A stretch of DNA of 54,089 nt from a virus, in IMG/VR virus record IMGVR_UViG_3300025141_000127, positions 1 to 54,089 of that record, one strand, 5' to 3'. A program made the position numbers and the translations under genes. Shown here in pieces: positions 3,101 to 31,311 of this stretch. A model generated the notes under the pieces. The model had not been told where the DNA came from, did no database searches, and saw nothing but the letters and a program-made list of their open reading frames with translations. How positions within the stretch are numbered: the first letter of the stretch is position 1; every line of letters begins with the position of its first letter.

Positions 3101-5181
3101 AACTGAATACCCTTGACTTGATAGACGGGTATCTGACTTATGGCCTAAGTTTGATGAGGGATACAGGAATCACGGCAAGGAAGTGGTTCATGCCCCGCGA
3201 CAGGTATGTACAGTTCGTCCTGCACTCGTATGATGAGGCCGGTAATCCTCGGATCATCCCAAAGGTTGAGTTGGGCGCGTGGTCGCAAGAGTTAGCGAAC
3301 AACGCCAAGAAACTAGATGTCACCCTTTCAGAGAAAATGGCCAACAACCCCCTGTCCGACACCATGAGGCAAACCTTTAAGGGCGCGCTCAACTGGTGGA
3401 AACAGAGCGTGCTATTCGGCGTGAGCGGCCTGCGCTCTATCGCCTTCTTTCTAACCAACGCGCAGGGCGACTTTGAGCGTATGGCTATTCAGGTTGGCTA
3501 CATAAAAGCTGCACAGCTTTCGATGTATGGCTCGCTCGGCTGGATACCTGTGATCGGCCCAATGGTGCAGGATGTCGCGCGGGCTGGCACCGCTGCGGCG
3601 TCAAAGGCTGTCGGAAAGCTCGGGGTGCCGGAGCCGACGATCTTCGGCTCGCAATACAACCGAGTTTTGGACGATGTTATGAGCGGCGTCAACGAGACTC
3701 GCACATACCAGAACTCGAAGGGAAAGTCGTTCACTATCAACCCCCGAGAGTTTATGCGTGAGGCGCGAAGGGCGGGTGTCAACGAAGACTACCTTCGCTC
3801 GGAGTCTCTGCGTGAGTTGCGGATCGCTGCCGACCAGCAGTTCAGGGGGATGATCCCCGCCCTCGGCGCTTCACGAAAGGGCGTGAGTATCCCCCAACTC
3901 TATCGTGATTGGTTTGGCTTCTTGCGCACCACCGCCGCTGTTGCGACGCGCCGGCAGAAGCTGATGCTCTACATGGACCTTCGCTTCAATGAGGGAGCGG
4001 ATGTCTCTAAGGCAACCGACGCAATGAACCGCAGCGTCTTTGACTACACCCTAAGCTCTAGTCCGTTTGAGGCGGCCTACCTTACACAGTGGTCCGCCTT
4101 CTACATCTACAAGAAGAATGCACTTCTAAACGATGCGGCCAACTTTCTTAGTTTTGACCGCACTCTCGCGCGGCACATCACCAACAGATTGGTGTTTGGC
4201 ACGCGCTACAAGAGAGCGCGCGCGCTCTTCCATTTTGAAACCATCATGCGTCCGCGCGAAGAGTATTCTCGGGATCAGATGATGGCCCTGACCGAAGCGG
4301 AGCACCCCCTTGAAAACCGCCCCGGTATCTTTAAGACCCCGGAGTACATGAGCGATGTGCTGATCACCCAGAGGGGCGCGCTATCGCTGGACCAACAGCG
4401 ACGGCAGGTGGACTTGGGCGCGACGCCGACAGTCTTCACTATCGGCCACGGATCCCCGTGGGCTGTGGCGCAAAACATGAACACCTTTGCCCTGATGCAA
4501 AAAACCCTCATAGGTAGCCTCGCGGCCGCATTCGTGGCCGACCTCCACCCCAACTCGACACAGATGAAGCGGGACTTGACCTCGTCGTTCCTCGACAACC
4601 TATTCCCAACGCACCAATCGATTGTCGGTGACAGTGTGCGTCGGATATTCGGTGTTCCTGTCCCCCACAGAAAGGACAGGCGAACCTTGAAAGATAACGA
4701 GGTAAAATTTATAAAGGCGGCGGGGTTGGACTTCCTTCTGGAAGAGGAGAAGGGCAGGTACGTCTCAAGCAATGCTGTTATAAACAACGGTATATTTGAC
4801 CCAGTCGCGTGGGCGGGCAAAGAAACAGAGTATGCAGGACTTCTGGGCACAACAATTTTTGGGGAAATGCCGGTTATCACACCAGAAGAAATCAAAGTCA
4901 AACAAGAAGTCTACAAACCACGGTTCCCCTTTAAGATCAAAGAACTGGGCATCGACTTCAATAAGTATAAGGATCTAGGCCCTGCTGGTATTCGCTTGGC
5001 GGCGGCTGATGAGTTAACAAAAGCCATGTACATTAACTTATTCAATGCCACCCGAGATACAAGCTGGACCGTGCAGCAGGCCAAGAGGGCACATGAGACC
5101 CGCATGGAGAGGGCGGGACGCAAAAGTTCTGCGGCCGAGAAAGAATACGCGAGGCAGAAAAGCCAAGAGGAAGAAGAATAA
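1..5181 (+). CDS. Large candidate internal virion/ejection protein, C-terminal 1726 residues (continues from 52593)
   Basis: The reading frame is open from base 1 and joins in frame to the CDS that starts at 52593 once the 141-bp terminal overlap is collapsed, giving one protein of 2,178 residues. No enzyme domain is recognised with confidence. After an N-terminal Ala/Glu-rich part comes a long coiled-coil-like stretch (roughly 720-1500 bp in this copy), then mostly helical sequence. Near 4000-4120 is a segment with the pattern FDYTLSSSPFE followed by aromatic-rich FYIYKKN, which I associate with large phage virion proteins of the polyvalent type. The tail end is rich in Lys/Glu. Its place after the nozzle and virion genes and before the holin-like gene fits an ejected internal virion protein of a podovirus. 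That role is inferred from size and position, not from homology. Confidence 0.7.
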   Translation, partial: EGYESDIAEEGGLEFMLGAMNYEAAAEGVVARGADDLMRIAPTTVQAAPYWQAYLDWQRLHKDNIDAEGNPDLDPKEGRQAYVLKRGAEIAQDPDQLALALASNYDPAGNMMVYGGRIAYPNLHERSPILAGLLNGSPRLLLMLIEPDALQASFASFGLVGSLVGYVGGRIPRAARLAGRISKAAGRVDDVVQGADSAQEVMDKLKALQDADATGATTFVSGLVGSDTARHMNGRGADDIADVLAAENRAFVEAGRKVEESEKVLKGAMADLKDAKTAVEKQASGVRAVEANVAKKSAEVEEAVAEIQVAQRGIDIVLKEDVVIDQAKTFSGWSEFDPATVLEGAKGGKRGFKGFEPDSPFNNPDMWLPSTFARAADGDPGAIKIMKRKLNKVAGEPPFKPAAAKRAKRAKLLKEQAERIESLRKLLRNSDLSTDQQTINQIVAAATTEDANLDTIVAAAGESFAKVDEKLRAAVNTVADAERKLAISERLAEVLAEGAAPGALLRGTGPALERMKETSAAFRAAAEVVASSEGQRLLKDLDLHKGGRDTAELLEAEPEKVGRLLELGADESDVLATLAASGDGGRRVALSFLVWAKSGDVQLRGMKNIKQSFNNMKKKYSRDGTRMFYRDYFTDPLFLVQQSLATVADIVQMSGLASTRVGVLGGRFAARLQEIANGQARETAAWFGDLGMIAKHFSGTTEAGAPLAKAKAVEFIGTQNRIELGGPQKGTRVNSNELGGDINDNIMNIAIEGWAGVGKTFVKTNKGVDLTEHYLEKSESMYAYITSFVRDRIDGDLVPRVGSATVTFGRWLNKPSKANKKLTNAEYILRKPDPEERMRLLANGAIDSLKRNGVGQFTPKSLDDVPGAILALDNKTFGLMLDNIVGGATEFEVAKRFANFAGPNIGLRNLRAMSSWIGAPEAGKKGKSILPNRETIEVGDRVALRSDMDPIRRVLAGKPLEGKGWDAGRPFKTTEGATRGPQFGLGAVERTEMPMTLEVLKVEKKGGRTVVTVTDWTGTTSTHALDEVTRLGGELNTLDLIDGYLTYGLSLMRDTGITARKWFMPRDRYVQFVLHSYDEAGNPRIIPKVELGAWSQELANNAKKLDVTLSEKMANNPLSDTMRQTFKGALNWWKQSVLFGVSGLRSIAFFLTNAQGDFERMAIQVGYIKAAQLSMYGSLGWIPVIGPMVQDVARAGTAAASKAVGKLGVPEPTIFGSQYNRVLDDVMSGVNETRTYQNSKGKSFTINPREFMREARRAGVNEDYLRSESLRELRIAADQQFRGMIPALGASRKGVSIPQLYRDWFGFLRTTAAVATRRQKLMLYMDLRFNEGADVSKATDAMNRSVFDYTLSSSPFEAAYLTQWSAFYIYKKNALLNDAANFLSFDRTLARHITNRLVFGTRYKRARALFHFETIMRPREEYSRDQMMALTEAEHPLENRPGIFKTPEYMSDVLITQRGALSLDQQRRQVDLGATPTVFTIGHGSPWAVAQNMNTFALMQKTLIGSLAAAFVADLHPNSTQMKRDLTSSFLDNLFPTHQSIVGDSVRRIFGVPVPHRKDRRTLKDNEVKFIKAAGLDFLLEEEKGRYVSSNAVINNGIFDPVAWAGKETEYAGLLGTTIFGEMPVITPEEIKVKQEVYKPRFPFKIKELGIDFNKYKDLGPAGIRLAAADELTKAMYINLFNATRDTSWTVQQAKRAHETRMERAGRKSSAAEKEYARQKSQEEEE

Positions 5182-11233: not shown

Positions 11234-13693
11234 CTAGACATCTTTCCAAGTTCTGCCAATCTCTGCGCTGGCCGTGAAGGTAACATCGAGACCCTCAACC
11301 CTGCGGGTCAGTGTCTCGTCAACGATCTCCTTGACCTCCTGCGCACGCTCTTCGGGCACCGACAGGAGCACAGCGTCATGTAGCTGATTGACCAGACCTA
11401 TCTTGTTGTCGAAGTCGAAGGGGATGTGCTGCTCCACCAACTCAAGCATAGACATGGCCACTACTGCAAAGCCTCCCGCCTGCACCCCGAAGTTCAGGAT
11501 GGCGTTGTAGTCCTCCTCCGCGAAGTAACGCCGGCGCATCCACACGCGCTCCTCGACGTACCCGTAGTCAGAGAAATGCTTTATTGTTTCTTTCCACCAC
11601 GCTTCAAACTCCGGGGCTTCTGACTTCCATCGGCGATGCAGCAATCGGATCTGCCGCAGGTCGTAGTGCGCGTAGAGCATGTTCCCTTCTTCGTCTTCCG
11701 CCCGCCCGCTGATTTCGTGGACTTTCGGGGCAGAGGCTCCGTACAGTGACGCGAAGCAGATGGTCTTGGCGAGGTTCCGCAGTTGCTTGAACTGGCCCGT
11801 GCCTTTGCCCATCTTGGTATCCGGCGCTCCCTCCGCTTTCCAAAACGCTTCTCCGAACATGAGGTCCGCAGTGAGGTTGTGGGGGTCGATCTCTTTCTTC
11901 TCGAAGGCGTCGAGGTAGTGCTGCGCTCCAGACAAGGCGGCTGCGAATCGTAGTTCAAGTTGATCGTAGTCCGCACCCACAAAGACGCAGCCTTCTGGAG
12001 GGATGAACATATCCCGTAGGTTGAAAGGTATGTTCTGAAAGTTTGGGTTAGAGGACGATAGTCTTCCAGTAACTGTTCCGTGTGAGTTGTAGTCGGGGTA
12101 GACATAGCCATCCTTTACGACACCCGCTCCGGGCGCGAACTTTCTAAGGTAAGTAGATAACAGCTTCTCCGCTCTACGGTAGAACCGAAGCGCCTGTAAA
12201 AATGCACGCTGCCTATCGTCCACTAAAGGGTTGATGGACAGGGACCGCAGGGAGGCTGCGCTAGTGGAGGGCTCACCTGACAGGGTGTACTCATGGGGAG
12301 GCAACGCCCACTTATCGAAGAGCAGGCGACGCAACTGGGTCGGTGAGTTGGGGTTGATGTCGGGCTGGATCTTGCTCAACTCCAGACGCCACTCATACGC
12401 GATCTCCGTCTGTTCCTCCTCATGCCAAGCGCGAGTCTCCTCGTCAATACGCATCCCCATACGACGCATGCCCGCACACAAGCTTTGGAGGCGCAGGTCT
12501 TTGTCGATCAGATGGGTCTGCTTTCTCTCCCAGACCATCTCCAACAAGGGCTGAATAATACGAGAGGTTACGGCCACGTCGGTAGCGCAGTATTGGTGAA
12601 GCTCCTCGTCGGTCTTCGCCGTCACACCCGCGTGGTCGGCCTTCCATGCCGGCACATCAGTAAGGACCGAGCCCACAAAGCCAAGGCTGTGACGGTACTC
12701 GGACGCGCCCAGCTTATGGAGTAGGATGGTATCGATCAGGGAGGTGGGGTTCCCTAGCTTATGAGACTCACACACCAGACGATCAAAGTAACCTGCATTG
12801 TGACCGGCAATACGAACCGACTCATCATCGAACACCTCACGAAGCAGACGTTTAATCTCTCGCTCATCCTCTGGCGAGTAGAATCTTGACACTCCGTCGA
12901 TACTTAGGAAGCCCAGTATTAAAACCTCGTTGTCCGTGCCGATCCCTATACAGCGAAGCTCGCAGTTCAGGGCGTCCACACCGTCGGTCTCCACGTCATA
13001 GGTCAGCACCCACTCGTTCTTGCGTGCGTCGTCAAAGAACTCACGCACCACATCGGGTGCCGGGTTGTATCTCACCACAGGGTCTTTCCAGCGTAGGGTG
13101 CCCTTGTGGTGACGCATTGCCTTCTGCACATCGCCATGCAGCACGGGCGTCAGATGCCTCTGTGCGGCGACCTGTGAGGGGTGATAGGTCGGGAGTATCT
13201 TGAGTCCCTCAACAAGCGTAGGGCCACCTCTGACGGCCTCGAGTGAAGGGTTGCCGGCGAGCATGAACTTGGTCGCGGTGGGGCCGCAGGTGATCACCGT
13301 CTTGTACCGGGCCATCTCCTCCTCGACGTGACCCCTGCACGCTTCGACGGGGGACATCGCAGGACGCCTGCCGGTGCCCGCACCTTGACGGTTCCTCTTC
13401 TTGAGTATCTGCATAAACATACGCGCGTCGTCTTTCGGCCACCGACACCCTACGACGTAGCCGTAGTCAACACCGTGGGCCTTGGTCCCCGCAGACTCGA
13501 GCGCATCCTTCATCGCGACGCCATGCTCGTCGGCCCATGCCCTTCCGAGAACGGACGCCTGCTTCGAGGGGGCGTCACCTAATACCAGAACATCGGAGCC
13601 GTTGTGTAAGAAGTCAACGCGCTCCCACTTACCCTCGGCCTGCCAGTATTTCCGAAGAGGGCAGCGCTCACACTTCGCCTTATCAAATCCCAT
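11234..13693 (-). CDS. UDG-like domain fused to 3'-5' exonuclease and family A DNA polymerase
   Basis: 819 residues, three domains. Residues 1 to about 190 resemble family 4/5 uracil-DNA glycosylases: Cys8, Cys11, Cys83 and Cys119 match the four iron-sulfur ligands, with LGDAPS at 38-43 (GEAPG in active enzymes) and a TYHPS motif near 170. Next is a proofreading exonuclease with DVETDG, HNAGYFD and YCATD. The polymerase has motif A DYDQLELR, motif B with K-x3-F-x3-YG, and motif C LHDAV, where the usual HDE Glu is Ala. The residue matching E. coli Pol I 762 is Phe, a state linked to virulent phages. It replicates the phage DNA. The glycosylase part may recognise rather than cut uracil. GGAGGACACGG sets the start, which overlaps the zinc-ribbon gene by 11 nt. 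Confidence 0.93.
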   Translation of the reverse strand: MGFDKAKCERCPLRKYWQAEGKWERVDFLHNGSDVLVLGDAPSKQASVLGRAWADEHGVAMKDALESAGTKAHGVDYGYVVGCRWPKDDARMFMQILKKRNRQGAGTGRRPAMSPVEACRGHVEEEMARYKTVITCGPTATKFMLAGNPSLEAVRGGPTLVEGLKILPTYHPSQVAAQRHLTPVLHGDVQKAMRHHKGTLRWKDPVVRYNPAPDVVREFFDDARKNEWVLTYDVETDGVDALNCELRCIGIGTDNEVLILGFLSIDGVSRFYSPEDEREIKRLLREVFDDESVRIAGHNAGYFDRLVCESHKLGNPTSLIDTILLHKLGASEYRHSLGFVGSVLTDVPAWKADHAGVTAKTDEELHQYCATDVAVTSRIIQPLLEMVWERKQTHLIDKDLRLQSLCAGMRRMGMRIDEETRAWHEEEQTEIAYEWRLELSKIQPDINPNSPTQLRRLLFDKWALPPHEYTLSGEPSTSAASLRSLSINPLVDDRQRAFLQALRFYRRAEKLLSTYLRKFAPGAGVVKDGYVYPDYNSHGTVTGRLSSSNPNFQNIPFNLRDMFIPPEGCVFVGADYDQLELRFAAALSGAQHYLDAFEKKEIDPHNLTADLMFGEAFWKAEGAPDTKMGKGTGQFKQLRNLAKTICFASLYGASAPKVHEISGRAEDEEGNMLYAHYDLRQIRLLHRRWKSEAPEFEAWWKETIKHFSDYGYVEERVWMRRRYFAEEDYNAILNFGVQAGGFAVVAMSMLELVEQHIPFDFDNKIGLVNQLHDAVLLSVPEERAQEVKEIVDETLTRRVEGLDVTFTASAEIGRTWKDV

Positions 13694-14581: not shown

Positions 14582-15514
14582 CTAAAAGTTGGTGAAAAAA
14601 TCATCCAACAGGTTGGTCTTGTAGCGGCGAAGTACCGCCCTATCAATGCCGTCGCTGACTCCCCAGCGAACGTGTCTTGGATCCTTGTCCTTGTACTTGG
14701 TTGAAATGCTGGCACCGTTTGCCTGCAACCACTTCTTAACCGAGCGTCGGTCCTTTGCCTCTGCCTTTATGATCCCTTGGCAAACCTTCTCGGCCAACTC
14801 GTCGAGCCACTCCAGTCCTTTGGCTCGGGGCAGGTCATAGCCTGTCGCTATCATGATCTCCCGAATGTTGGTGGGTGAGTAATCAGGCATCATCGAGAGG
14901 CGGCTACCCGTGATGTAGTTTGGGGTCGGCGCAGACTGGTAGACGTAGGGCCAGTTGCTTAGGGCGTCCTTGTCATACTTCATGCGGACCACGAAGTCTG
15001 ACATCGCCGGGATTTTCTCCGGCAGTTTCCAGCCTGTAATGGAGGGGTGTCCGGGGATGAACACCGTCTTGTTGTCACGGGTGACTTCGCGTGGCGGGGT
15101 CTCATGCATGACGAGGAAGCAGTGGCAGTCCGCGTTACGCACCCCGTCGCGCAGCTTGTACATCGTCTTGATCAAAACATCGAATGCCTTGAAGCCGGCG
15201 TTGCGTGGGTTGCTCTGGATGTGAATCAGTTCCGCATCGGCGATCAGGCTGAAGTCATCAATGATGATCGCGTTGTACTTCTTCGAAGCGCGGTGAACGA
15301 CATCGGTGATCTTGTCCACCGTCGTGTCGGGGGTGATCACCCAAGTGTCTGGCTCATGCCCGATGTAGTCAGAGCAGGAGGTTCCCCCCACCGACGTGAT
15401 CACAAGGGTCGAGCCGGCGAACGACTTGAGTAGGCCGAGCGTCTTGCCCACCTTGGGCGGCGCATAGATAATACCGAACACCTTCGGCAGGTCTTTGATC
15501 TTCGTCTTACTCAT
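14582..15514 (-). CDS. RecA-like recombinase/annealase ATPase (Sak4-like)
   Basis: 310 residues. Walker A APPKVGKT is at 18-25 right after a short strand, a Walker B region NAIIIDDFSLI is near 95, and a compact RecA core follows. This matches phage Sak4-type single-domain RecA proteins, which stimulate strand annealing with a partner SSB. An SSB-like gene follows and a Cas4-like nuclease precedes, the usual recombination triplet. The C-terminal 90 residues are an added basic region. GAGGAGGACACT sets the ATG, which overlaps the stop of the nuclease gene by 8 nt. DnaC-like loading is a less likely alternative. Confidence 0.75.
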   Translation of the reverse strand: MSKTKIKDLPKVFGIIYAPPKVGKTLGLLKSFAGSTLVITSVGGTSCSDYIGHEPDTWVITPDTTVDKITDVVHRASKKYNAIIIDDFSLIADAELIHIQSNPRNAGFKAFDVLIKTMYKLRDGVRNADCHCFLVMHETPPREVTRDNKTVFIPGHPSITGWKLPEKIPAMSDFVVRMKYDKDALSNWPYVYQSAPTPNYITGSRLSMMPDYSPTNIREIMIATGYDLPRAKGLEWLDELAEKVCQGIIKAEAKDRRSVKKWLQANGASISTKYKDKDPRHVRWGVSDGIDRAVLRRYKTNLLDDFFTNF

Positions 15515-16337
15515 AGTGTCCTCCTCGTTTGCAGGTCTGAAAGAAACGGCACTCGCCGAAGGTTGTTTGGCATGCGTGCTCTTGGTGACTCCCCGGCCAG
15601 CCGAAGGCTTCCCTTCCATCGAACTGGGCTATCATCCGCTCCGCCAACCTAACCGTCTCGGGGAACCGCGCAACAGACTTTTCGGCATACGGCAGAACTT
15701 TCCTCTTGAACGAAGAAACGGGCTTGCGGTCATCCCAGCCAATGAGGTTCAAGATGACGCCCCCGAACTGGTCGCCGTACATCTCACGCCCGATCATCTG
15801 CTGCCCGAGGAACTGGCCCGACAGGGCATACTTGTTGTGTGTCCTGTGCAGGATGGCGAAGCTCGTCTTGTGGTCCACGAAGTACACCTTGTCGTGGTGC
15901 TCCACGATCAGGTCGATGCGTGCCGTGTAGTCATACGCCCTCTCCGTGTGGTCCATGTGCGGGTCGAGCACCTGCGTCTCCACCTCTTTCTCCACGGCGA
16001 GGATGTGCCAGCTTGGAGTGAGGTACATCGCCGTGTACTGGTGGTACACCTCAATGACCTTGCGCCACCACTTGTCGTAGAGCGGATGGCCAGCCTCCAC
16101 GGCGCAGCGCGCTACCGCATCCTCGGGCGACAGGTACGAGGGCTCCTCGTCCTGCTGTTCACATTGGAGGTTGGCATAGTGGTGGGCGAGCGCAACGTGC
16201 ATGAGCGTGCCGCGAACCAACGCATCGGTTGGCTTCCACTCGCGCTCCTTGTTGAAGGCGTAGTAGCGGGGACACTTGAGCACGTTGGCCAGCCTGTGCC
16301 AGCCGGCGCGAGAGGGACCGGTGTCTAGGTATTGCAT
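15507..16337 (-). CDS. Cas4/RecB-type PD-(D/E)xK nuclease with probable iron-sulfur cluster
   Basis: 276 residues. An N-terminal SRAGWHRLANVLKCPRYYAF segment carries the first Cys. RGTLMHVALAHHY supplies the conserved His, ARIDLIVEHHDKVYFVDHKT has the D and D-x-K catalytic residues, and GQFLGQQ is the QxxxY-like motif. Three Cys near the C-terminus (HACQTTFGECRFFQTC) complete the Cas4/AddB pattern for a 4Fe-4S cluster. Such enzymes resect DNA ends to give ssDNA for recombination. There is no CRISPR array or cas1 nearby. The start is set by GGAGGACGC. The gene overlaps both neighbours. Confidence 0.85.
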   Translation of the reverse strand: MQYLDTGPSRAGWHRLANVLKCPRYYAFNKEREWKPTDALVRGTLMHVALAHHYANLQCEQQDEEPSYLSPEDAVARCAVEAGHPLYDKWWRKVIEVYHQYTAMYLTPSWHILAVEKEVETQVLDPHMDHTERAYDYTARIDLIVEHHDKVYFVDHKTSFAILHRTHNKYALSGQFLGQQMIGREMYGDQFGGVILNLIGWDDRKPVSSFKRKVLPYAEKSVARFPETVRLAERMIAQFDGREAFGWPGSHQEHACQTTFGECRFFQTCKRGGHYE

Positions 16338-17174: not shown

Positions 17175-18617
17175 TTATAGACCCGCACTGGCAGCGAGTA
17201 TAGAAGCGATGATCGAGTCTTCGTCCTGATCTCCCATGAGGGTGCCGGCCACCTCGCCGGACTCTTTATCATCCAGCACAGCCTCCACTGATTGAAGCTT
17301 GTCGATCAGTATGTCCGCGACGTATTCGTCCACCGTACCACTGGCTACGGTGTACATGATCAGTACCGACCGCTTCGACCCGTGCCTGCTGAAGCGTCCC
17401 TCCGCCTGTGTGATCTGTCCCGGCGTCCACGGTAGCAGCCCGAAGACCACAAGGTCCGTGTTCTGCAACCCGTCGATGGATTCGCCGAACGCATCGGTGG
17501 TGCCGACGAATGCCGCCGCCCCCTCATGCGCTGCGTACTCGGCGACGATGCCGTCACGGTACTGGGTGCTGTCACCGCCGTGCCCTGTCCAGAGGGGAGC
17601 ATCCTTCAGCTTCTTCCCGATCAGCTTGGCGAGAGCCTCGCAGTCCTTGCGCCGCCCAGTGAAGACGCAGACCTTTTGTCCGGCGTCCACCGCGTCGGCC
17701 ACCGTCTCCGCGATCCAGCGGCGCTTACTACTTGCCGCTGAAAGAATCCTCACCTCGAAGAGAGCCTGCGCTCCGTTGCGGGCGGCCCTCTTCATATCCG
17801 CAGCGAACCCGGAAGGGCGGACCAGATCTGTCTTCGAGAGATACACAAGCTGCCGCCTCTTCGGAGGTAGCTTCCGCGCCATCTCCTCGCGCGAGACTAC
17901 ATGAACTATTTTTGCCAGTCTCTTTTTTAACTCTTCCTCATTCGAGCGGCCGGACACGTCGAGCCCGCCGAACTTACCGGGCTTCGCATCGCAGTAGCGG
18001 TGTACGAAAGACCAGTTAGTACCTAGAAAGTTGGGAGACACTAGGTCAGCCTGACCCCACAGGTCGCCAACCCTGTCCCTGATCAGCGTCGCCGTAAGAC
18101 CGAGACGACGGTGCGCCATGCGTGAGATCGCACAGGCTGCCGCCGCGCGGTTCTCCGCCGAGCGGTACTTGACGTTGCCATCACGGCCAAGGTACTTCCT
18201 CTGTCGCCGCCACGACTTGCCCTTGTGTAGCTCGTCGAACACCACGAAGAGGCGACCCGTCGTCTGACGCCACGCAGCTATCGCATCGATCCAGTAGGGT
18301 ATCGTATCCCATGAGAGGATCAGGATGTCAGCGTCGCGCATCTCCTCAAGAGGCATCGGCGTCCTACTCTCACCCACGATGGCACGGCCCGTGGTGTAGT
18401 GCGACACCTCCCGCTGCCACTGGCGGCGAGCGGGGGCGCGTGTGATGACCAGCGTCTTGCCGGGCTCACCCTGTGACGAGGCCCACAACAATGCAGCTAG
18501 CGTCTTACCTGACCCGCACGCCCACCACAGGATGGCGTCCTTCTGGAACATGAAGTCCCAACCCTCGTTCTGGTACTCGGTGAGGAACCCGTCGAGCACC
18601 CACTGGTGTACTCTCAT
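17175..18617 (-). CDS. Superfamily 2 helicase/translocase (SNF2-like)
   Basis: 480 residues. Walker A ACGSGKT at 33-39, motif Ia VITRAPARRQW, Walker B VVFDELH (a DExH box) near 125, motif III GLTAT, and in the second domain VCVFTGRRKDCEAL and QAEGRFSRHGSKRS (motif VI with Arg finger). This is a full two-lobe SF2 ATPase, closest in style to phage SNF2/DEAH proteins that move on DNA in replication, recombination or repair. A primase-helicase is encoded elsewhere, so this is likely a second, remodelling helicase. The start codon sits within the stop of the preceding gene (ATGA). Confidence 0.85.
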   Translation of the reverse strand: MRVHQWVLDGFLTEYQNEGWDFMFQKDAILWWACGSGKTLAALLWASSQGEPGKTLVITRAPARRQWQREVSHYTTGRAIVGESRTPMPLEEMRDADILILSWDTIPYWIDAIAAWRQTTGRLFVVFDELHKGKSWRRQRKYLGRDGNVKYRSAENRAAAACAISRMAHRRLGLTATLIRDRVGDLWGQADLVSPNFLGTNWSFVHRYCDAKPGKFGGLDVSGRSNEEELKKRLAKIVHVVSREEMARKLPPKRRQLVYLSKTDLVRPSGFAADMKRAARNGAQALFEVRILSAASSKRRWIAETVADAVDAGQKVCVFTGRRKDCEALAKLIGKKLKDAPLWTGHGGDSTQYRDGIVAEYAAHEGAAAFVGTTDAFGESIDGLQNTDLVVFGLLPWTPGQITQAEGRFSRHGSKRSVLIMYTVASGTVDEYVADILIDKLQSVEAVLDDKESGEVAGTLMGDQDEDSIIASILAASAGL

Positions 18618-20210: not shown

Positions 20211-21182
20211 CTACGCAGTGAGCAGTGCCATCGCGCGCTCGTTCAACTTGGCGGCAGGGCCTTCAACTGAACCGAGGAAGAGCTTCTCTTCACGGTCACC
20301 ACCCCGCGTTGGGATGTGGTGTGTGCTGTACTCGGTGACTGCATTGAGCGCCTGCCACTTCGAGCCACGTCCAGAGTGGGCACCGCGCCCGTGCTCGTAC
20401 AAGTCGAAGAGCAACTCGCGACGGTTCTCTGCCAACGTGTAGCCACGGGTAGGCTCGCCCTCCAGAGGAACCTCGGGCAGTGGAAGCAGGTTGTCCATGA
20501 AGTCGGCGAAGTCCATCGCGCTGAAGGGAGTATCCGCGAGGGTCTTCATGATCGCCTTCTGCGTCATGATCATCCGCTCACAGTTGCGGAAGAGATCCTC
20601 CGCCATACGCAAACGCTCCGGCGCGCTGCGCGTGTGGCGGATGCTGGTATGGGGCAGGCCCATGCGCTTGACCATCTGCCTTGTTGCGACCAGTTGGTTC
20701 GTGCAGTAGCCACGGCCAAGGGCCACGAACACCTCGGTGGAGGAGCTACTGTCGTGCGAACCTCGGGTCCAAACGTATGGGGTGACGAGGTCGCCGTCCC
20801 CGGTCACGTCGAACTGGTAGTCCGTCAACTCCACACTGACGAAGAGCCTGCGCCCGTTGAACTCGATGGCCCTGTCAAGGGAGAAGCCCTCCTGTAGCAG
20901 GTGGTCAATCACTCCGAACATCTCGCCGAAGCCGATGGGTGTGTAGCGGTCGGTGACGTTCTCACCAACGATGCGGCCACGACTGTCCATCAGGTTGTAC
21001 TTGCCGGGGATCACCCGCACGCCACCGTCGGGTAGGATGGAAGCCATCGGCACCTTGACGGGCGCGTCGAATGGGATGTCGGCAGACAGGAGAGCCTGCA
21101 CGATATTCTCGGACTCGGTTGGAACCTTGAAGCCGAGGGTGGTGGCGGGGGCCTGATGATCATATTCAATATCGTCAAACAT
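20211..21182 (-). CDS. DUF932 family protein
   Basis: 323 residues with the DUF932 (phage/plasmid-like protein) pattern: an N-terminal ASILPDGGVRVIPGKYNLMDSRGR, DRYTPIGFGEMFGVIDHLLQEG, FNGRRLFVSVEL, CTNQLVATR, RHTRSAPERLRMAED and a C-terminal GRGAHSGRGSKWQALNAVTEYSTHH. The family is common on phages and plasmids near replication genes, and its biochemical role is unknown. It starts after GAGAGGACAAT and stands alone between two gaps, so it probably has its own regulation. Confidence 0.85.
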   Translation of the reverse strand: MFDDIEYDHQAPATTLGFKVPTESENIVQALLSADIPFDAPVKVPMASILPDGGVRVIPGKYNLMDSRGRIVGENVTDRYTPIGFGEMFGVIDHLLQEGFSLDRAIEFNGRRLFVSVELTDYQFDVTGDGDLVTPYVWTRGSHDSSSSTEVFVALGRGYCTNQLVATRQMVKRMGLPHTSIRHTRSAPERLRMAEDLFRNCERMIMTQKAIMKTLADTPFSAMDFADFMDNLLPLPEVPLEGEPTRGYTLAENRRELLFDLYEHGRGAHSGRGSKWQALNAVTEYSTHHIPTRGGDREEKLFLGSVEGPAAKLNERAMALLTA

Positions 21183-23483: not shown

Positions 23484-24088
23484 GCCGCACCTCCAAGCTG
23501 CAAGAACTGCGAGAGGTGGAGCGCCGCCGCGTGGTAGGACCGGCTCGTGTTCAGCGAGACCTGCTGTAGCCGCCGCAGGATCTCCTCCGCCTCGTCCATG
23601 TCTCCTCGGTTGCGGAAGTCCACGATGTCCTGCGCCAGCTTGCGGACGGTGGTCTGCACCGTACCCCTCGCGCACAACCACCAGAACTCCCGGTCATAGG
23701 TACGCTCGCGCTGAAGCTGGCCCTCCCTCACGGTTGCCCGGAACCACTTGTTGTCCACGTCATCTATGCCACGCTCCCGAAGGTCAAGCAGGACCGCCCA
23801 CTGGGAGAGACACCACGCAACAGCATCCCTGTCCTCTCGGTTGTAGTCCCGAACTACGAACACCATCCTTTCGTCCTCGACGTAGGCCAAGGGATGCCCC
23901 TCGTCCCCGTGAGTGGGGTGCTCGTAGATGCGCACGCCGTAGCGGGAGTAGAGCAGGGTGGAGTTCAGCCTAAGCTCGTCTCCACTCCACTTTGTGGTGG
24001 GCAGATCCCAGAAGTCGCAGAAGTAGCGGCCGTCCGCAAGGGAGGGGTACAGGTACGGGACGTAGGTTGTGTTTGTGTCGCGGTTCAT
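23480..24088 (-). CDS. Hypothetical protein ending GGAA
   Basis: 202 residues. The N-terminal half is strand-rich (NTTYVPYLYPSLADGRYFCDFWDL, SRYGVRIYEHPTHGDEGHPLAYVEDERMVFVVRD). The C-terminal half is helical and charged (REFWWLCARGTVQTTVRKLAQDIV, EAEEILRRLQQVSLNTS). No family recognised. The ATG at 24088 is fixed by the ATGA junction and GGGAGGTGCAGC. It is the largest member of the junction-linked string. Confidence 0.6.
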   Translation of the reverse strand: MNRDTNTTYVPYLYPSLADGRYFCDFWDLPTTKWSGDELRLNSTLLYSRYGVRIYEHPTHGDEGHPLAYVEDERMVFVVRDYNREDRDAVAWCLSQWAVLLDLRERGIDDVDNKWFRATVREGQLQRERTYDREFWWLCARGTVQTTVRKLAQDIVDFRNRGDMDEAEEILRRLQQVSLNTSRSYHAAALHLSQFLQLGGAA

Positions 24089-24780
24089 GCTGCACCTCCC
24101 TGCGCGCTGCGCACAGGCTCGGCGATGACCCTGCCCACGGTGACGACATCGCCCTGCTCCAACGCAGCGATGTACGCGAAGCGGGAGAGGTTGCACCGGC
24201 AGTCGTCCTCGCTGGCGGCGATGTAGCTTGAGCCCTCATACCGATTGTGGATGCGCACGACGGCGGCGCCCTTCGTGATGGGCAGGAAGGACACGCGCCC
24301 AACCATGCCCCCATCCGTGTCAGCCATGCTGGGGCGAAGGCCGGAAGAGAGAGCCTGCTGCACGCAGGTCCAGACCTCGTCGGTCATGTCGGAGCAGTGC
24401 TTGCGGAAGTGGCCTCGGTTGCTGGTGACGATGGTGTGCGGGGTGGGTCCGCAGGTGGCGGGGTAGGTGATCGCCACCTCATGGTCAGCGTAGTCGAAGG
24501 CCTCTTCGATCACCGCGCCCGTGGCGTGGGCGATGGTAGGTCCGACCTCCTCAAGTGCTGCCCGGTACATCGCCTCCTTCGGGGCGGCCTCGTCCACCTC
24601 CTCGGTGGTGAGCGCACCGTACAGGTCGTCCATCGTGGCAGGGGAGCGGGGATCGTGACCGTAGGTGAAGAGCAGGTCACGCAGACCCTCGGTCAGGTGG
24701 ACGTTCACGTCGTCGTGGATGCGTTGGGCGCACGCGCCCTCGGCGAAGTCAAGTTCAATGGTGAAGCGGATTTTTTTCAT
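24085..24780 (-). CDS. Hypothetical protein ending GGAA
   Basis: 231 residues. Starts MKKIRFTIELDFAEGACAQRIHDD, with a middle segment ATCGPTPHTIVTSNRGHFRKHCSD and C-terminal strands AAVVRIHNRYEGSSYIAA and GDVVTVGRVIAEP. No family recognised. GAGAGGACACC sets the ATG. It heads the run of five genes whose boundaries use the GGAA junction. Confidence 0.6.
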   Translation of the reverse strand: MKKIRFTIELDFAEGACAQRIHDDVNVHLTEGLRDLLFTYGHDPRSPATMDDLYGALTTEEVDEAAPKEAMYRAALEEVGPTIAHATGAVIEEAFDYADHEVAITYPATCGPTPHTIVTSNRGHFRKHCSDMTDEVWTCVQQALSSGLRPSMADTDGGMVGRVSFLPITKGAAVVRIHNRYEGSSYIAASEDDCRCNLSRFAYIAALEQGDVVTVGRVIAEPVRSAQGGAA

Positions 24781-24815: not shown

Positions 24816-25190
24816 TCAGATGTTGTTTGCGTATGCGTAACGGGCCTCGCGCTCATCTTCCTCAAGCTTCTTGACGCGCTCCTCGATGAGGTGGGCGATG
24901 TACGCGGCCTTCACCTCGGACGCACCGCGCAGGGGACCGTGGTTAGCAGAAGGGCCGGAGGTGCGGAAGTAGTGGAGAGCGTTGCGGTCACCGTCGTAGA
25001 CCATGTGCGATGTTCCATCGCTCGTAATCTTGAGCCCCTTCGGGATCTCGATGTCGAGCAGGGTAGCAAGGGCGCGAAGTTTCCTGACGCCCTCGGCCTC
25101 TCCGCCCGCCAGCGTGAAGACTGCGGTCTCGATGTCGAAGGTCATGGTGATGCCGGGCTCGGATGCGTGCTGGGTGAATGCGATGTTCAT
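24816..25190 (-). CDS. Hypothetical protein downstream of hammerhead 4
   Basis: 124 residues: TMTFDIETAVFTLAGGEAEGVRKLRALATLLDIEIPKG, then a central strand region and an acidic C-terminal helix HLIEERVKKLEEDEREARYAY. No family recognised. The ATG at 25190 follows GAGAGGACAAC and lies 29 nt after the ribozyme, so its mRNA would begin with the ribozyme's first helix if cleavage occurs. Confidence 0.6.
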   Translation of the reverse strand: MNIAFTQHASEPGITMTFDIETAVFTLAGGEAEGVRKLRALATLLDIEIPKGLKITSDGTSHMVYDGDRNALHYFRTSGPSANHGPLRGASEVKAAYIAHLIEERVKKLEEDEREARYAYANNI

Positions 25191-25219
25191 GTTGTCCTCT
25201 CGAATGGTTGATGGCTGAC

Positions 25220-25275
25220 GGGGTTTCGGCCCTCTGTGGGCCATCGTCAGGAGCGCAGATGCAGCGCCCGACCCC
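25220..25275 (-). ncRNA. Type III hammerhead ribozyme 4
   Basis: Leftward transcript, 25275 to 25220. Helix III GGGGU/ACCCC, cleavage after C at 25270, helix I GGGCGC/GCGCUC (one G-U, 7-nt loop), core CUGACGA, one extra U, helix II GGCCC/GGGCC (5-nt loop), then GAAA. All invariant hammerhead core bases are present. An extra residue at exactly this core position is described for a viroid hammerhead. The UUCG hairpin ACCC-UUCG-GGGU (25282-25271) overlaps helix III here, and CGUCAG just downstream can pair with the core CUGACG, so two competing folds exist. It sits 12 nt after the preceding gene's stop codon. Confidence 0.87.
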
Positions 25276-25287
25276 GAAGGGTGGGCG

Positions 25288-26055
25288 TCAGCCCTGCACC
25301 TCCCACTCGACGAGCGCGTCACCGATGGCGTCGGACATGTCCACGATGAGGGAGCGCTCCACGGCGTAGGCGTGACCCCTGTCGGTGGCGTTGGAGCCGT
25401 GCTCATGGAGGGCGCTGAAGTATCCCTTCAGCATGTCGTGTGAGGCCCAGTGGAAGGCGCTCCATTGCAGGGCGGACATGTCCTCACCGTACCCGAGATA
25501 CCTTTCGACGATCTCGCCAACGGAGTGACTGTCACTATTCCTCCACGTCCGCTCGAAACCCCAGCCGCCGTCCTTGAGTTGGCGCTCGACAGTGAAGGTC
25601 CGACGAACGCAGATGTGCGAGCGAGCATCGCCGTCGAAGGACGTGATGGTGGCCACGACATCCACCTTGATGCGACGCACGACGCCCTCGAAGTCGGTGT
25701 TCTCGTAGGTGGCGGTGGGCATGGTCGCCGTCAGGTCGTGCTCGATCCCGCGCGATGGGCGGGAGTGGATGTGACGCGCTTCGCCGGCGCGGCGAACGCA
25801 CCAAGCGGTGAACTCCTCGGAGAAGAGAGGCGCGACAGGCGTGACGGTGACGCCGCAGGCATAGCCGCCGCCGCCGATGGTGACGCTCTCGCCTGTGGCC
25901 TTGGCCGCTGCCGTCGCAGCCATGATGAGGGCTAGCGTCACATCGTTCACGACCTCCTCGTCGTAGCTCGAACGCTTGATGTCGTCCCCGTCCATGCGGG
26001 TCGTGAGGGGGCCGGTGTCGCCGGTGTTGATGGTGATGTCGAATGTCGGTGTCAT
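25288..26055 (-). CDS. Hypothetical protein between hammerheads 3 and 4
   Basis: 255 residues. The N-terminus is Asp/Thr-rich (TFDITINTGDTGPLTTRMDGDD), followed by VNDVTLALIMAATAAAKATGESVTIGGGGYACG, a strand-rich centre (RIKVDVVATITSFDGD, HICVRRTFTVERQ), and a helical end. No family recognised. The ATG at 26055 follows GAGAGGACAAC. It would be released as a single-gene mRNA if both flanking ribozymes cut. Confidence 0.6.
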   Translation of the reverse strand: MTPTFDITINTGDTGPLTTRMDGDDIKRSSYDEEVVNDVTLALIMAATAAAKATGESVTIGGGGYACGVTVTPVAPLFSEEFTAWCVRRAGEARHIHSRPSRGIEHDLTATMPTATYENTDFEGVVRRIKVDVVATITSFDGDARSHICVRRTFTVERQLKDGGWGFERTWRNSDSHSVGEIVERYLGYGEDMSALQWSAFHWASHDMLKGYFSALHEHGSNATDRGHAYAVERSLIVDMSDAIGDALVEWEVQG

Positions 26056-26080
26056 GTTGTCCTCTCTGGTTGTGACTGAC

Positions 26081-26135
26081 GGGGTTTCGGCTCTCCATGA
26101 GCCATCGTCAGGCGGGCGGTACAGCCCACGACCCC
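26081..26135 (-). ncRNA. Type III hammerhead ribozyme 3
   Basis: Leftward transcript, 26135 to 26081. Helix III GGGGU/ACCCC, cleavage after C at 26130, helix I GUGGGC/GCCCGC (one U-G, loop UGUACC), core CUGACGA, extra U, helix II GGCUC/GAGCC (loop AUGGA), GAAA. Compared with ribozyme 4, helix II has a compensatory change (GGCUC/GAGCC against GGCCC/GGGCC), which supports a selected structure. The downstream CGUCAG can also pair with the core here. The start codon of the next gene is 25 nt beyond. Confidence 0.9.
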
Positions 26136-26136
26136 T

Positions 26137-26152
26137 GCCCCCCGAAGGGGGC
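26137..26152 (-). other. C(UUCG)G hairpin upstream of hammerhead 3
   Basis: The leftward strand reads GCCCCC-UUCG-GGGGGC, a 6-bp stem 7 nt after the preceding stop and one base before helix III of the ribozyme. After cleavage it would sit near the new 3' end of the upstream mRNA and could block 3' exonucleases. Confidence 0.8.
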
Positions 26153-26159
26153 TCGGTGA

Positions 26160-26639
26160 TCAGCCCTTCACCTCCTTCACGATGCGGACCTTGAGGTTCG
26201 ACACGCACTTGGCGAGACCCCATCCAGTCGGGCTCCTGCTTTCGTCAGGGAGATCCTTCCAGACCTTGAGCCCGGTCATGAAGTCGTCCTTGTCGTAGCC
26301 AGAGCCGGCGGTGACGAGACCGAAGAGCACGGTGGCAATGACGGTAAGCTCGCGGTCCTTCGCCAGCACCCGCTCGGTGGTGGGGTACTTCGGATGGGCC
26401 TCGGCCTCGGCCACCGAGAGTCGAGGGTGCTTCTTGTCGAACTTCTTCATCCGGCTGTAGGCGTCCCTCTCGGCAGCGTAGGCGGCGAGGGCATACCGAT
26501 GGAGGATCCGAAGTCCGGCGTCGCCGTGGCAGGCGGTGTGAAAGCCAACCGTGAAGCACTGGGTCGCGAGGCGGTGCATGGTCTCGGCCTCGGCTGCGGT
26601 CATGTTGATGGTGATGGTCTTGTTGGTGGTCGGTGTCAT
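26160..26639 (-). CDS. Hypothetical protein between hammerheads 2 and 3
   Basis: 159 residues, helical: NMTAAEAETMHRLATQCFTVGFH, LRILHRYALAAYAAERDAYSRMKKF, an HPKYPTTERVLAKDRELTVIATVLFG segment, and a basic end LKVRIVKEVKG. No family recognised. The ATG at 26639 follows GAGAGGACGAC. Bounded by ribozymes on both sides. Confidence 0.6.
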   Translation of the reverse strand: MTPTTNKTITINMTAAEAETMHRLATQCFTVGFHTACHGDAGLRILHRYALAAYAAERDAYSRMKKFDKKHPRLSVAEAEAHPKYPTTERVLAKDRELTVIATVLFGLVTAGSGYDKDDFMTGLKVWKDLPDESRSPTGWGLAKCVSNLKVRIVKEVKG

Positions 26640-26661
26640 GTCGTCCTCTCGTTGGTTGGTT

Positions 26662-26708
26662 CCGTTTCGGCCTTGCTTGGCCTCATCAGCGGGGCTTCCC
26701 CCGGACGG
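26662..26708 (-). ncRNA. Type III hammerhead ribozyme 2
   Basis: Leftward transcript, 26708 to 26662. Helix III CCGU/ACGG (4 bp), cleavage after C at 26704, helix I CGGGG/CCCCG (loop GAAG), core CUGAUGA, helix II GGCC/GGCC (loop AAGCAA), GAAA. There is no extra core base, and this is a textbook consensus. Helix III is the shortest of the four. The next start codon is 22 nt downstream. Confidence 0.92.
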
Positions 26709-26709
26709 T

Positions 26710-26723
26710 GCCCCCGAAGGGGC
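26710..26723 (-). other. C(UUCG)G hairpin upstream of hammerhead 2
   Basis: GCCCC-UUCG-GGGGC on the leftward strand, 7 nt after the preceding TAG and one base before ribozyme helix III. Same arrangement as at the other ribozymes. Confidence 0.8.
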
Positions 26724-26730
26724 GTGGCGG

Positions 26731-26949
26731 CTAGTAGCCCTCCTCGGATGTGACCTTGTCGAACCAGCGTTCGCAGAGGCGTGCGGTGTCGAGGTCGCCA
26801 TCTGACCTCGCGTTAAACCCGAGCAGGTCGAGCATGGTGCAGCCGGGGCACCCGAAGGCCTCCTCGATGTGATCTTCCTTGTACTGGCGCAGCTTGCTGA
26901 TGACCCATTCTGCCGTCCGTCGTGTCTCTGTCTTGTATGTCCGTTTCAT
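26731..26949 (-). CDS. Hypothetical protein between hammerheads 1 and 2
   Basis: 72 residues: a basic start KRTYKTETRRTAEWVISKLRQYKEDHIEEAFG, then CPGCTMLDLLGFNARSDGD and CERWFDKVTSEEGY. One Cys-x2-Cys plus a later Cys might bind metal. No family recognised. GAGAGGACGAC precedes the ATG, 18 nt after the ribozyme. Confidence 0.6.
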   Translation of the reverse strand: MKRTYKTETRRTAEWVISKLRQYKEDHIEEAFGCPGCTMLDLLGFNARSDGDLDTARLCERWFDKVTSEEGY

Positions 26950-26967
26950 GTCGTCCTCTCGTTGGTT

Positions 26968-27016
26968 GCTGTTTCGCCCTTCATCGGGCTCGTCAGGTGG
27001 GCTTCCCCACGACAGC
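26968..27016 (-). ncRNA. Type III hammerhead ribozyme 1
   Basis: Leftward transcript, 27016 to 26968. Helix III GCUGU/ACAGC, cleavage after C at 27011, helix I GUGGG/CCCAC (loop GAAG), core CUGACGA, helix II GCCC/GGGC (loop GAUGAA), GAAA. It is a complete consensus without insertions and the first ribozyme met by leftward transcription from the origin. Helix sequences differ from ribozyme 2 throughout while the core, the GAUG/AAGC-sized loop II and the GAAG loop are kept. Confidence 0.93.
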
Positions 27017-27031
27017 GCCCCCGAAGGGGCG
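27016..27031 (-). other. C(UUCG)G hairpin upstream of hammerhead 1
   Basis: CGCCCC-UUCG-GGGGCG on the leftward strand, 6 bp, starting 5 nt after the preceding TAG. Its last base is also the first of ribozyme helix III, so the two structures stack directly or share that pair. Confidence 0.8.
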
Positions 27032-27036
27032 GCCCG

Positions 27037-27300
27037 CTAGGGCTGGGTGATCAGCTTCACCAGAAGCAGGGTGATTGCGTCGTCGTTGGCCGGGTTGTAC
27101 CGGGCCAGAGCCTCCTCCAGCGTGACGCCTTGCAGGTACTTCCGCAGGTAGATGTGGACGAACTCCGTGCTGAGATCCGTCGTCGGGCCTTCGTGGTGGC
27201 GACGGGGCTCGGTGCTGCCGAGGGCGTCCTCGTAGGTGAGGTTGGCCGTGGCTGGCACGAAGGTGATGTCGGCGGTGTCGAGAATGGATTGGAGTGTCAT
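27037..27300 (-). CDS. Hypothetical protein upstream of hammerhead 1
   Basis: 87 residues: MTLQSILDTADITFVPATANLTYEDALG, then RRHHEGPTTDLSTEFVHIYLRKYLQGVTLEEALARY and a hydrophobic end AITLLLVKLITQP. No family recognised. The ATG at 27300 is preferred to a TTG five codons upstream because GAGGACACACACC precedes it. Confidence 0.6.
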   Translation of the reverse strand: MTLQSILDTADITFVPATANLTYEDALGSTEPRRHHEGPTTDLSTEFVHIYLRKYLQGVTLEEALARYNPANDDAITLLLVKLITQP

Positions 27301-28800: not shown

Positions 28801-31311
28801 ATGAAGGACAAGTCAGGCGAGACCCGCATCCTGCGCGGTCTTGAGAAGGTACTGCGCCCGAATCAGGTGGTAGAATTACGCGCACTAGGGGTAGAGACGG
28901 CGGAGGGTTACCGGAATCTGAACGGATTCTTTGATGACCACCGCCTTCTAGCGGAGGCAGCAGCACATCTCTGTAGTGAGGGGGCTCGAGGGGTGTACTT
29001 CACGCCGAACCCCCTTAAAGCGGACTTTCACTTGGACGCCCGCAACACACTTGGGGTAGCTCGGCGCGGGTTCGCGGCGACGGATACCGATGTGGAGGAG
29101 ATCCGGTGGATACTCATCGACATCGACCCCTCACGTCCGGCGAACATCTCCAGTACGGAGGAAGAGAAGGAGGGTGCCCTCGCTGTTGCGGGGAAGGTGC
29201 GCGCATTCTTGGAATCGCACGGATGGCCGCAACCATTGTTTGCAGATTCCGGCAATGGCTACCATCTCATGTACCTGTGCGAGGGATTGACGGCGAAAGA
29301 CCACAAGAGGCTGCTTGACCTCCTATCCTTCCGCTTTAATCTGGACGGTGTCGCCGTTGTGGACCAGTCTGTCTACAACCCAAGCCGGATATGGAAGGTT
29401 TACGGTACATACTCAAGGAAAGGGGAAGATGCCCCCAACCGCCCTTGGCCCTTGGCGCATATCATCTCTAAAGTCGCTCCGAAAAAAGCTGTCAAGCAGC
29501 AGCAACTGCAAGCGCTGCTTGCTGATTCTCCAAAGGAGAATAAGCGTGCTATTCTATCCGAGGATGATCAGGAGCGGCTCCAGACTTGGGTCGCTGCGCA
29601 CTTCCCTCAAGCAACCGGGCCAGACCCGTGGCAGGGCAAGGGGCGGCGCTGGGTATTCGACGTGTGTCCTTGGGATCCCTTCCATACAGACCGCAGCGCC
29701 TACATTGTGCAGTTCAATAGCGGGGCAGTCTCCGCCGGGTGCCTGCATAAGAACTGTGCCGGCCACGGAAGGGACGATGATGGCCGCAGTCTGGGCTGGA
29801 GGAGGCTTCAGGAGTTGGCTGGGGACGATTTTGGAGGAGGGGGAGAGGACAACACCCCACCACAGGGCCCGCTGGCCCCATCGTCTTCAGATAACTTTAA
29901 TCTGACGGACCTCGGGAACGCGAAGCGGATGATCTCGTCCTTCGGGGTAAACATGCGCTACTGCCCAACACATGCCTCTTGGTATATCTTTGATGACGCC
30001 AGATGGCAGAGGGACATGGATGGGGCGGTTCAGCGCTACGCGAAATCTTCGGTTGGTTTGATTTTTCAGGACGCCAATGCTGAAACAAACCGTCAGCGCC
30101 AGCGTGCCCTTCAGCGCCACGCCCTCCGCAGTGAGGGGTGCGGCGCGCTCAACTCAATGGTGTCCGTAGCCTCTACCGAAGCTGAAGTTTGTATTCCATC
30201 TTACCGTTTGGACTCTGACCCTTGGCTCTTCAACACATCCAGCGGAACCCTCGACCTTCGCACCGGCGAACTATCTGACCACGACAGGACCGACCTTATC
30301 ACTAAGATCAGCCCCGTTGAATGGGATGTGGACGCGAAGTGCCCCCTCTGGGATGAGTTCATCATGTATGCGATGGAGGAGGATGAGGAAGTCGTCGAGT
30401 TCCTGCACCGCTTCTTTGGTTATTGCTTGACGGGCATGGTCACGGAGCAGGTTCTTCTCTTCATGGAGGGGACAGGAGGAAATGGTAAGACTACTGCCTT
30501 GTTAGTTTTAATGCACATTCTCGGGGAATACTCCATTCAGGGAGCGCCCGGACTTCTGATGGCCAAGCACAACGAATCCCACCCAACGGAGGTGGCTGAC
30601 TTGGAGGGTGCCCGCTTTGTGGCCAACGCCGAAGTCGAGAAGGGCAAGCCCTTTGCGGAGGTGCTGATCAAGCAGTTGACCGGCAGCGACCCCATCCGGG
30701 CTCGTCGGATGCGTATGGACTTTTACCAATTCATGCCCTCCCACAAACTGTGCATCGCGGCGAATCATCGGCCCATCATCAAGGGCAACGATGAGGGAAT
30801 TTGGCGGCGCGTCTTGCGGATCCCTTGGAGAGTAAAAATTCCAGATAGCAAGAAAGACCCCCACTTGGTGGAAAAGCTGAAGAAGGAATCCTCCGGTATT
30901 CTGAATAAGCTGGTTGAAGGCTGCTTATCGTGGCAGAAGGATGGATTGAATCCCCCTCAAAAAGTTCGTGTGGCGACGAATGAATACCGCGAGGAGATGG
31001 ATGTTCTCTCCGAGTACATGGAAGAGAGATGCATTATTGGTAAGGACAGGTCGGTCCCGAAGAAACAGCTTTATATGGACTACGCCGAGTGGTGCGAAGA
31101 CATGAAGCAGCGACCCCAGAGTTACTCTCTGTTCTGCCGCCAGCTATCCGAGAGAGACTACAAGAGTTCCGTGACCAAGGTAATGTTCAATGGGCAGAGA
31201 AAGTCCATTCGGGTTTGGAGGGGCCTCACTTTGGCGCACCTCACTCGCACTGCGGAGTCGCCCGCCAGCGCGATTGTTTCTAAACTTAAATGGGGGGATG
31301 CGGAAGCTTGA
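28801..31311 (+). CDS. Primase-helicase (AEP primase domain plus P4/D5-type SF3 helicase)
   Basis: 836 residues. The N-terminal part has WILIDIDPS (metal-binding DxD near residue 106), then DSGNGYHLMY (SxH-like motif near 150) and SRIWKVYGTYSRKG, the order of an archaeo-eukaryotic-type primase-polymerase. A middle region with CPWDPFHTDRSAY and CLHKNCAGH may bind zinc. The D5_N/P4 helicase follows with Walker A GTGGNGKT near 557-564, ARFVANAEVEKG, and KLCIAANHRPIIKGNDEGIWRRV (motif C and Arg finger). It should open the origin, unwind and prime. It lies 8 bp after the HTH gene with GGGGGAG as ribosome binding site. Confidence 0.92.
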   Translation: MKDKSGETRILRGLEKVLRPNQVVELRALGVETAEGYRNLNGFFDDHRLLAEAAAHLCSEGARGVYFTPNPLKADFHLDARNTLGVARRGFAATDTDVEEIRWILIDIDPSRPANISSTEEEKEGALAVAGKVRAFLESHGWPQPLFADSGNGYHLMYLCEGLTAKDHKRLLDLLSFRFNLDGVAVVDQSVYNPSRIWKVYGTYSRKGEDAPNRPWPLAHIISKVAPKKAVKQQQLQALLADSPKENKRAILSEDDQERLQTWVAAHFPQATGPDPWQGKGRRWVFDVCPWDPFHTDRSAYIVQFNSGAVSAGCLHKNCAGHGRDDDGRSLGWRRLQELAGDDFGGGGEDNTPPQGPLAPSSSDNFNLTDLGNAKRMISSFGVNMRYCPTHASWYIFDDARWQRDMDGAVQRYAKSSVGLIFQDANAETNRQRQRALQRHALRSEGCGALNSMVSVASTEAEVCIPSYRLDSDPWLFNTSSGTLDLRTGELSDHDRTDLITKISPVEWDVDAKCPLWDEFIMYAMEEDEEVVEFLHRFFGYCLTGMVTEQVLLFMEGTGGNGKTTALLVLMHILGEYSIQGAPGLLMAKHNESHPTEVADLEGARFVANAEVEKGKPFAEVLIKQLTGSDPIRARRMRMDFYQFMPSHKLCIAANHRPIIKGNDEGIWRRVLRIPWRVKIPDSKKDPHLVEKLKKESSGILNKLVEGCLSWQKDGLNPPQKVRVATNEYREEMDVLSEYMEERCIIGKDRSVPKKQLYMDYAEWCEDMKQRPQSYSLFCRQLSERDYKSSVTKVMFNGQRKSIRVWRGLTLAHLTRTAESPASAIVSKLKWGDAEA

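Follow-up and report, generated by a model that had tools for sequence, protein, structure and literature searches.

Four type III hammerhead ribozymes in consecutive gaps of one phage operon, with a matching row in a related phage

The window, by which we mean the whole stretch of viral DNA analysed here, is an IMG/VR record of an uncultivated phage; it comprises 54,089 bases with 57% G+C and contains no tRNA genes. On its minus strand, five small genes run from 27300 to 24816 and form the head of a co-directional block, which further along encodes a DUF932 protein, a helicase, a Sak4-like protein and a DNA polymerase (Table 1). Searches of the five small proteins against PHROGs and Pfam gave no useful match. 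Divergent from this early block, and separated from it by about 1 kb, lies the gene of an 836-aa primase-helicase-like protein with D5_N and DUF5906 domains (28801-31311, plus strand). When the region was scanned for sigma-70-like sites only, no such promoter above chance was found for the genes of the row, and no terminator-like site was present on the minus strand within 24816-27300. Annotated phages gave no DNA match for the operon; they offered only distant matches, to the terminase and the polymerase, all below 60% identity. A search for related loci through the 255-aa gene returned none, and the 124-aa gene led to G001 and G002, two contigs of a related phage.

Table 1 Features of the operon in the window and of RNA elements in other contigs (window positions unless a locus is named).
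Feature	Position	Strand	Remarks
Gene 1	27037..27300	-	87 aa; homolog in G002
Hairpin GCCCC-UUCG-GGGGC	27017..27030	-	just before copy 1; from sequence
Type III hammerhead, copy 1	26968..27016	-	predicted cleavage after 27011; motif scan, RF00008 (38.4 bits), covariance model not trained on this copy
Gene 2	26731..26949	-	72 aa; 81% identical in G002
Hairpin GCCCC-UUCG-GGGGC	26710..26723	-	just before copy 2; from sequence
Type III hammerhead, copy 2	26662..26708	-	predicted cleavage after 26704; motif scan, RF00008 (44.1 bits), covariance model
Gene 3	26160..26639	-	159 aa; convincing G002 counterpart not found
Hairpin GCCCCC-UUCG-GGGGGC	26137..26152	-	just before copy 3; from sequence
Type III hammerhead, copy 3	26081..26135	-	predicted cleavage after 26130; extra U between A9 and helix II; motif scan
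CGUCAG	26076..26081	-	exact complement of copy 3 core CUGACG; possible core lock
Gene 4	25288..26055	-	255 aa; about 51% identical in G002 (protein)
Hairpin ACCC-UUCG-GGGU	25271..25282	-	at copy 4; 3' arm common to helix III, mutually exclusive with helix III
Type III hammerhead, copy 4	25220..25275	-	predicted cleavage after 25270; extra U between A9 and helix II; motif scan
CGUCAG	25215..25220	-	exact complement of copy 4 core CUGACG; possible core lock
Gene 5	24816..25190	-	124 aa; G002 homolog after hammerhead 2
Next gene	24085..24780	-	231 aa; gap without hammerhead in the window; G002 homolog directly after hammerhead 4
DUF932 protein	20211-21182		further along block
Helicase	17175-18617		further along block
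Sak4-like protein	14582-15619		further along block
DNA polymerase	11234-13693		further along block
Type I (permuted) hammerheads, G009	L086:3650-3712 and 4230-4286		in gaps, alongside type III
Unclassified RNA, about 90 nt	L086:3160-3247 (G009), L087:3340-3426 (G012), L096:5918-6012 (G048)		
Unclassified RNA, about 90 nt	L107:1074-1167, L111:7039-7131, L117:3590-3501 (-)		other viral contigs

The initial annotation had proposed four complete type III hammerheads on the minus strand, one in each gap between the five genes, and the motif scan bore this out. An N-U-C cleavage site, CUGANGA and GAAA are present in all four copies. Around this core stand helices I, II and III of 5-6, 4-5 and 4-6 bp, the first two closed by loops and the third open, as expected of type III; loops I and II vary among the copies. 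A scan of both strands of the whole window for types I, II and III (core, UH site and three helices) returned exactly these four, the type I and type II scans adding none, and Markov shuffles of the window yielded no hammerhead (40 shuffles for type III, 20 for all types). The flanking gaps at 27330/27300 and 24816/24780 are without a hammerhead. All four copies lie on the coding strand. The cut falls 18-30 nt past a stop codon and 61-79 nt ahead of a start codon; counted from the end of helix III, the start codon is 18, 22, 25 and 28 nt away. Such an arrangement, with several hammerheads in gaps on one phage strand which is the coding strand and with co-directional genes nearby, is that of clustered hammerheads.

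Scoring against Rfam, which the initial annotation had named as a check, succeeded only in part. The model RF00008 (Hammerhead_3) matched copy 2 (E 2e-6) and copy 1 (E 8e-5), whose topology, core and helices are those of the family, although both scored under its gathering score of 48.5, a curation threshold which lies outside the definition of the ribozyme. Copies 3 and 4, unlike these, remained unmatched in Rfam at E<=1; both have an extra U between A9 and helix II, which is missing from the initial annotation, and a longer loop I. A covariance model trained on copies 3 and 4 together with two copies from relatives nevertheless found copy 1 (36.6 bits, E 7e-9) and copy 2 (34.9 bits, E 3e-8), while its next match in the window had an E value of 0.41 and nothing else was credible.

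An unpaired nucleotide after A9 recurs in many of the phage hammerheads that we collected. It also has a natural parallel in the plus-strand hammerhead of chrysanthemum chlorotic mottle viroid (CChMVd), which has an extra A between A9 and helix II (PMC3705267) in an otherwise consensus core. The viroid nucleotide is A whereas that of the window is U, and a viroid circle differs from a phage operon. Since the extra A is natural there, the extra U of copies 3 and 4 is tolerable, though cleavage may be slower for it.

The fold of these elements is also reflected in their covariation. In an alignment of 21 distinct sequences, 95.5% of the pair cells hold standard pairs, and 13 of the 16 pairs show changes on both sides; none of 500 shuffles reached the observed covariation values, and the signal was lost when the partners were slid. 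Because the matches were placed in this alignment by fitting to the model, which biases the counts, we recounted the covariation without an alignment by indexing helix positions from the core. In the nine distinct copies of the phage group, 130 of 135 positions pair, and several helix positions show three or four pair types. The compensatory change in helix II between copies 3 and 4, remarked on initially, is real (U-A to C-G). Strict conservation of the core together with compensatory changes in the helices shows selection on the fold.

The initial annotation had also suggested looking for the same gaps in related phages. Most of the 52.8 kb of G002 is syntenic with the window, and four type III hammerheads occupy the same series of gaps there. 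The ribozyme gaps of the two phages are 94, 87, 95 and 91% identical and the coding sequences 74-93%, so that conservation of the gaps equals or exceeds that of the genes. The 61-nt ribozyme copy 3 is identical in G002, although the gene downstream is only about 51% identical at the protein level. Copy 2 of G002 has the helix III and the upstream hairpin of copy 2 in the window, and its helices I and II are different. Conservation of the row in G002 strengthens what we regard as the best reading of the four elements, namely type III hammerheads that fill every gap of one operon and would cut its polycistronic mRNA into single-gene units.

Genes and ribozymes have not always travelled together in these two phages. 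Downstream of hammerhead 4 the window has the 124-aa gene, which in G002 comes after hammerhead 2 instead, and G002 lacks the 159-aa gene of the window, which was either gained or lost. The leader of hammerhead 4 hardly differs between the two phages, so leaders remain with their gap rather than with a gene. When 24816-26639 of the window is set beside L004:1030-2976, genes are seen to be swapped under conserved ribozyme leaders.

More distant relatives were found through the terminase and the polymerase. A scan of 47 records of relatives, many of them fragments, with the motif CTGANGAN{8,24}CGAAAC revealed real hammerheads in G009 and G012 alone. In both, hammerheads occupy gaps of the corresponding region: one of type III and two of type I in G009; one of type III in G012, together with the beginning of a type I at the contig end (L087, about 4145-4180). 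In type I geometry, the ribozyme body would remain on the upstream message. The presence of types I and III in G009 indicates that a single phage can employ the two geometries. The complete or long records of G013, G019, G048 and G005 held no hammerhead by the motif tried, so the ribozymes are dispensable within this phage group.

Rows of hammerheads also occur in viral contigs unrelated to the window. The prophage G051 (IMG/VR 2928394966_000006) has four type III copies in series on one strand (C1:2373-4759, minus), like the window; G050 (contig 3300012940_000043) has three type III (C1:38894-40175, plus) and one type I, and G052 and G053 have two hammerheads each in series. G051 and G050, which we compared with the window by their hammerheads alone, differ from it in bearing long hairpins of 10-12 bp just upstream of several copies, where the window has short UUCG hairpins.

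These short GC hairpins, which have a cUUCGg loop and stand before each copy in the window, were not mentioned in the initial annotation. In G002, the loop of the first is UACG and its stem is one pair longer, so a UNCG loop is kept. No U run follows any of the cUUCGg hairpins, which therefore do not resemble intrinsic terminators. Since the region is GC-rich, folding by itself gives weak support to the hairpins of the window: upstream hairpins were individually significant at p<=0.05 in 8 of 28 cases, all of them in unrelated contigs and none in the window. The case for the window hairpins is therefore made by the repeated cUUCGg and by the UACG loop with its extra pair in G002. They would naturally serve to shield the 3' end that cutting creates on the upstream message. 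As a separate matter, we considered a general trap in which the upstream hairpin takes the 5' strand of helix III. Such sharing was seen in copy 4, in G002 copy 4, in G009 and G012, and in L133, L141 and L142, but it is not above chance at fixed composition, and the general trap was rejected by a composition-preserving test (Fisher p = 0.72).

Another short element, CGUCAG, likewise missing from the initial annotation, immediately follows helix III in copies 3 and 4. It stands in the same place in G012 and in the two CCCC-type copies of G002. It recurs in L138, L140 and L141, contigs without detected similarity to the window, and in G009 it reads CGUUAG, by which pairing with the core is kept through G-U. 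In total, the core complement is present in 7 of 28 distinct type III hammerheads, against about 0.04 expected by chance according to our own estimate. Folding of the 3' product predicts that the core is locked by this complement with a probability of 0.6-0.99 in 7 of 8 cases. The hexamer may thus be either a lock that forms after cutting or an off-state that precedes it.

Taking these observations together, we consider it likely that the type III hammerheads act in cis and cut the nascent early transcript once per gap. From where the copies lie and from the known chemistry of the family, we infer that cutting would take place co-transcriptionally at the four predicted positions, and that the upstream message would then end in ...GUC, bearing a 2',3'-cyclic phosphate, at a distance of a few bases from the small cUUCGg hairpin. 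Owing to the type III geometry, the ribozyme body would stay on the downstream message as a 5'-OH leader, occupying part of the 61-79 nt before the start codon. One polycistronic message would in this way be turned into single-gene messages, each bearing hairpins at both ends, and their structured, chemically blocked ends would uncouple the decay and the translation of neighbouring genes.

The benefit of such segmentation might be an independent stability and dosage of each gene. In folding predictions, the Shine-Dalgarno-like site and the start codon are mostly unpaired both before and after the cut; since they are accessible either way, cutting is unlikely to act by uncovering them, and independent decay and uncoupling of the genes is the more likely benefit. 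Against this reading stands nearest-neighbour folding, which ignores loop-loop contacts and co-transcriptional order and gives the full active fold a low probability in several copies. The competitors in this folding are the UUCG hairpin against helix III and, in copies 3 and 4, CGUCAG against the core.

The same competitors could be read as parts of a switch. In some copies, the UUCG hairpin would hold the 5' strand of helix III and CGUCAG would pair with the CUGACG core before the cut, and ribosomes, proteins or the speed of transcription would decide whether cutting occurs. The occurrence of CGUCAG or CGUUAG in copies 3 and 4, G002, G012, G009, L138, L140 and L141, at a frequency far above chance and with a high predicted probability of the lock, speaks for this. 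However, copies 1 and 2 are without CGUCAG, the cases of core complement possibly represent only about three lineages, and the lock may form only after cleavage, which it would make irreversible; moreover, the overlap between helix III and the upstream hairpin was not above chance at fixed composition. We therefore regard both the switch and the proposed control of cutting by ribosomes, proteins or transcription speed as rather doubtful. Somewhat less probable still is that the hammerheads mainly mark the borders of exchangeable cassettes or are passengers maintained by recombination, with mRNA processing being incidental. The altered gene order under the ribozymes, with the 124-aa gene moved and the 159-aa gene missing in G002, would fit such a role, and so would leaders that follow the gap rather than the gene and the G002 copy 2 in which helices I and II were replaced while helix III and the upstream hairpin were kept. 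Passengers, however, would decay, whereas the core and the compensatory helix changes bear the mark of selection for the fold, and recombination needs identity, yet the copies differ in sequence.

Two further readings fare worse. Hammerhead chemistry is reversible, and cleavage could serve an outcome other than segmentation, such as the release or stabilisation of small RNAs, ligation into circles or the premature decay of the promoter-distal message. Ligation and circles were raised by Perreault et al., who sought spliced or circular products and detected none (PMC3088659). In the window, what lies between two cuts is a complete gene, and its own Shine-Dalgarno-like site is predicted to be accessible whether or not the cut has been made; we consider such other outcomes improbable. 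That the elements are non-functional look-alikes is hardly credible. Two copies do fall below the Rfam gathering score and two are unseen by Rfam; but the four stand in consecutive gaps, none appears elsewhere in the window or in the shuffles, their covariation is strong, and the row is kept in a relative.

The proposed segmentation of the early transcript has a precedent in phages. Perreault et al. (2011) described prophages in which several hammerheads border single genes, and suggested that they process polycistronic RNA; they showed three tandem arrangements to cleave in vitro and a triple arrangement to cleave in E. coli (PMC3088659). A 2017 review repeats the association with phages and calls the role of the hammerheads open (PMC6155905). 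The view that only isolated hammerheads are known in phages, taken in the initial annotation, was accordingly wrong, in the light of that report and of the rows in unrelated viral contigs. The rows of Perreault et al. and that of the window have in common several hammerheads in gaps that flank single genes or short blocks of one phage transcript. They differ in that the window has type III in all four copies, fills four consecutive gaps, is matched by four copies in a relative and has a cUUCGg hairpin before each copy, its cleavage being predicted only. Because clustered phage hammerheads were reported in 2011 and other rows exist, the present row is a clean new example and not a new principle; it is unusually regular and well supported by comparison. 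With every gap filled and the same row in a relative, it offers a clean system for the study of mRNA segmentation through point mutants, in a field where the role of hammerheads has been open since their discovery in phages.

The gaps of this phage group hold one more RNA, which, like the type I hammerheads of the relatives, had no place in the initial annotation. This unclassified, covarying element of about 90 nt, found in G009, G012, G048 and three other viral contigs (Table 1), resembles the hammerheads in being flanked by a stop codon on one side and a start codon on the other, and in G009 and G012 it lies in the same region as the hammerheads. Judged by the company it keeps, this RNA suggests itself as a candidate self-cleaving RNA, and possibly as a new ribozyme. 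It is conceivable, though we put it forward only tentatively, that self-cutting RNA is a standard, exchangeable part of the gaps in this phage group, present as type III, as type I or as the unclassified RNA, which would perhaps be a new self-cleaving class, and in some cases fitted with a CGUCAG lock that makes cutting irreversible or conditional. The unclassified RNA had no Rfam match at E<=1. Its consensus includes CCTGCRNGGATGG and CCACGRACGGRC; among five sequences, 9 of 21 predicted pairs change on both sides, and a covariance model built from these five finds the sixth at E 3e-8.
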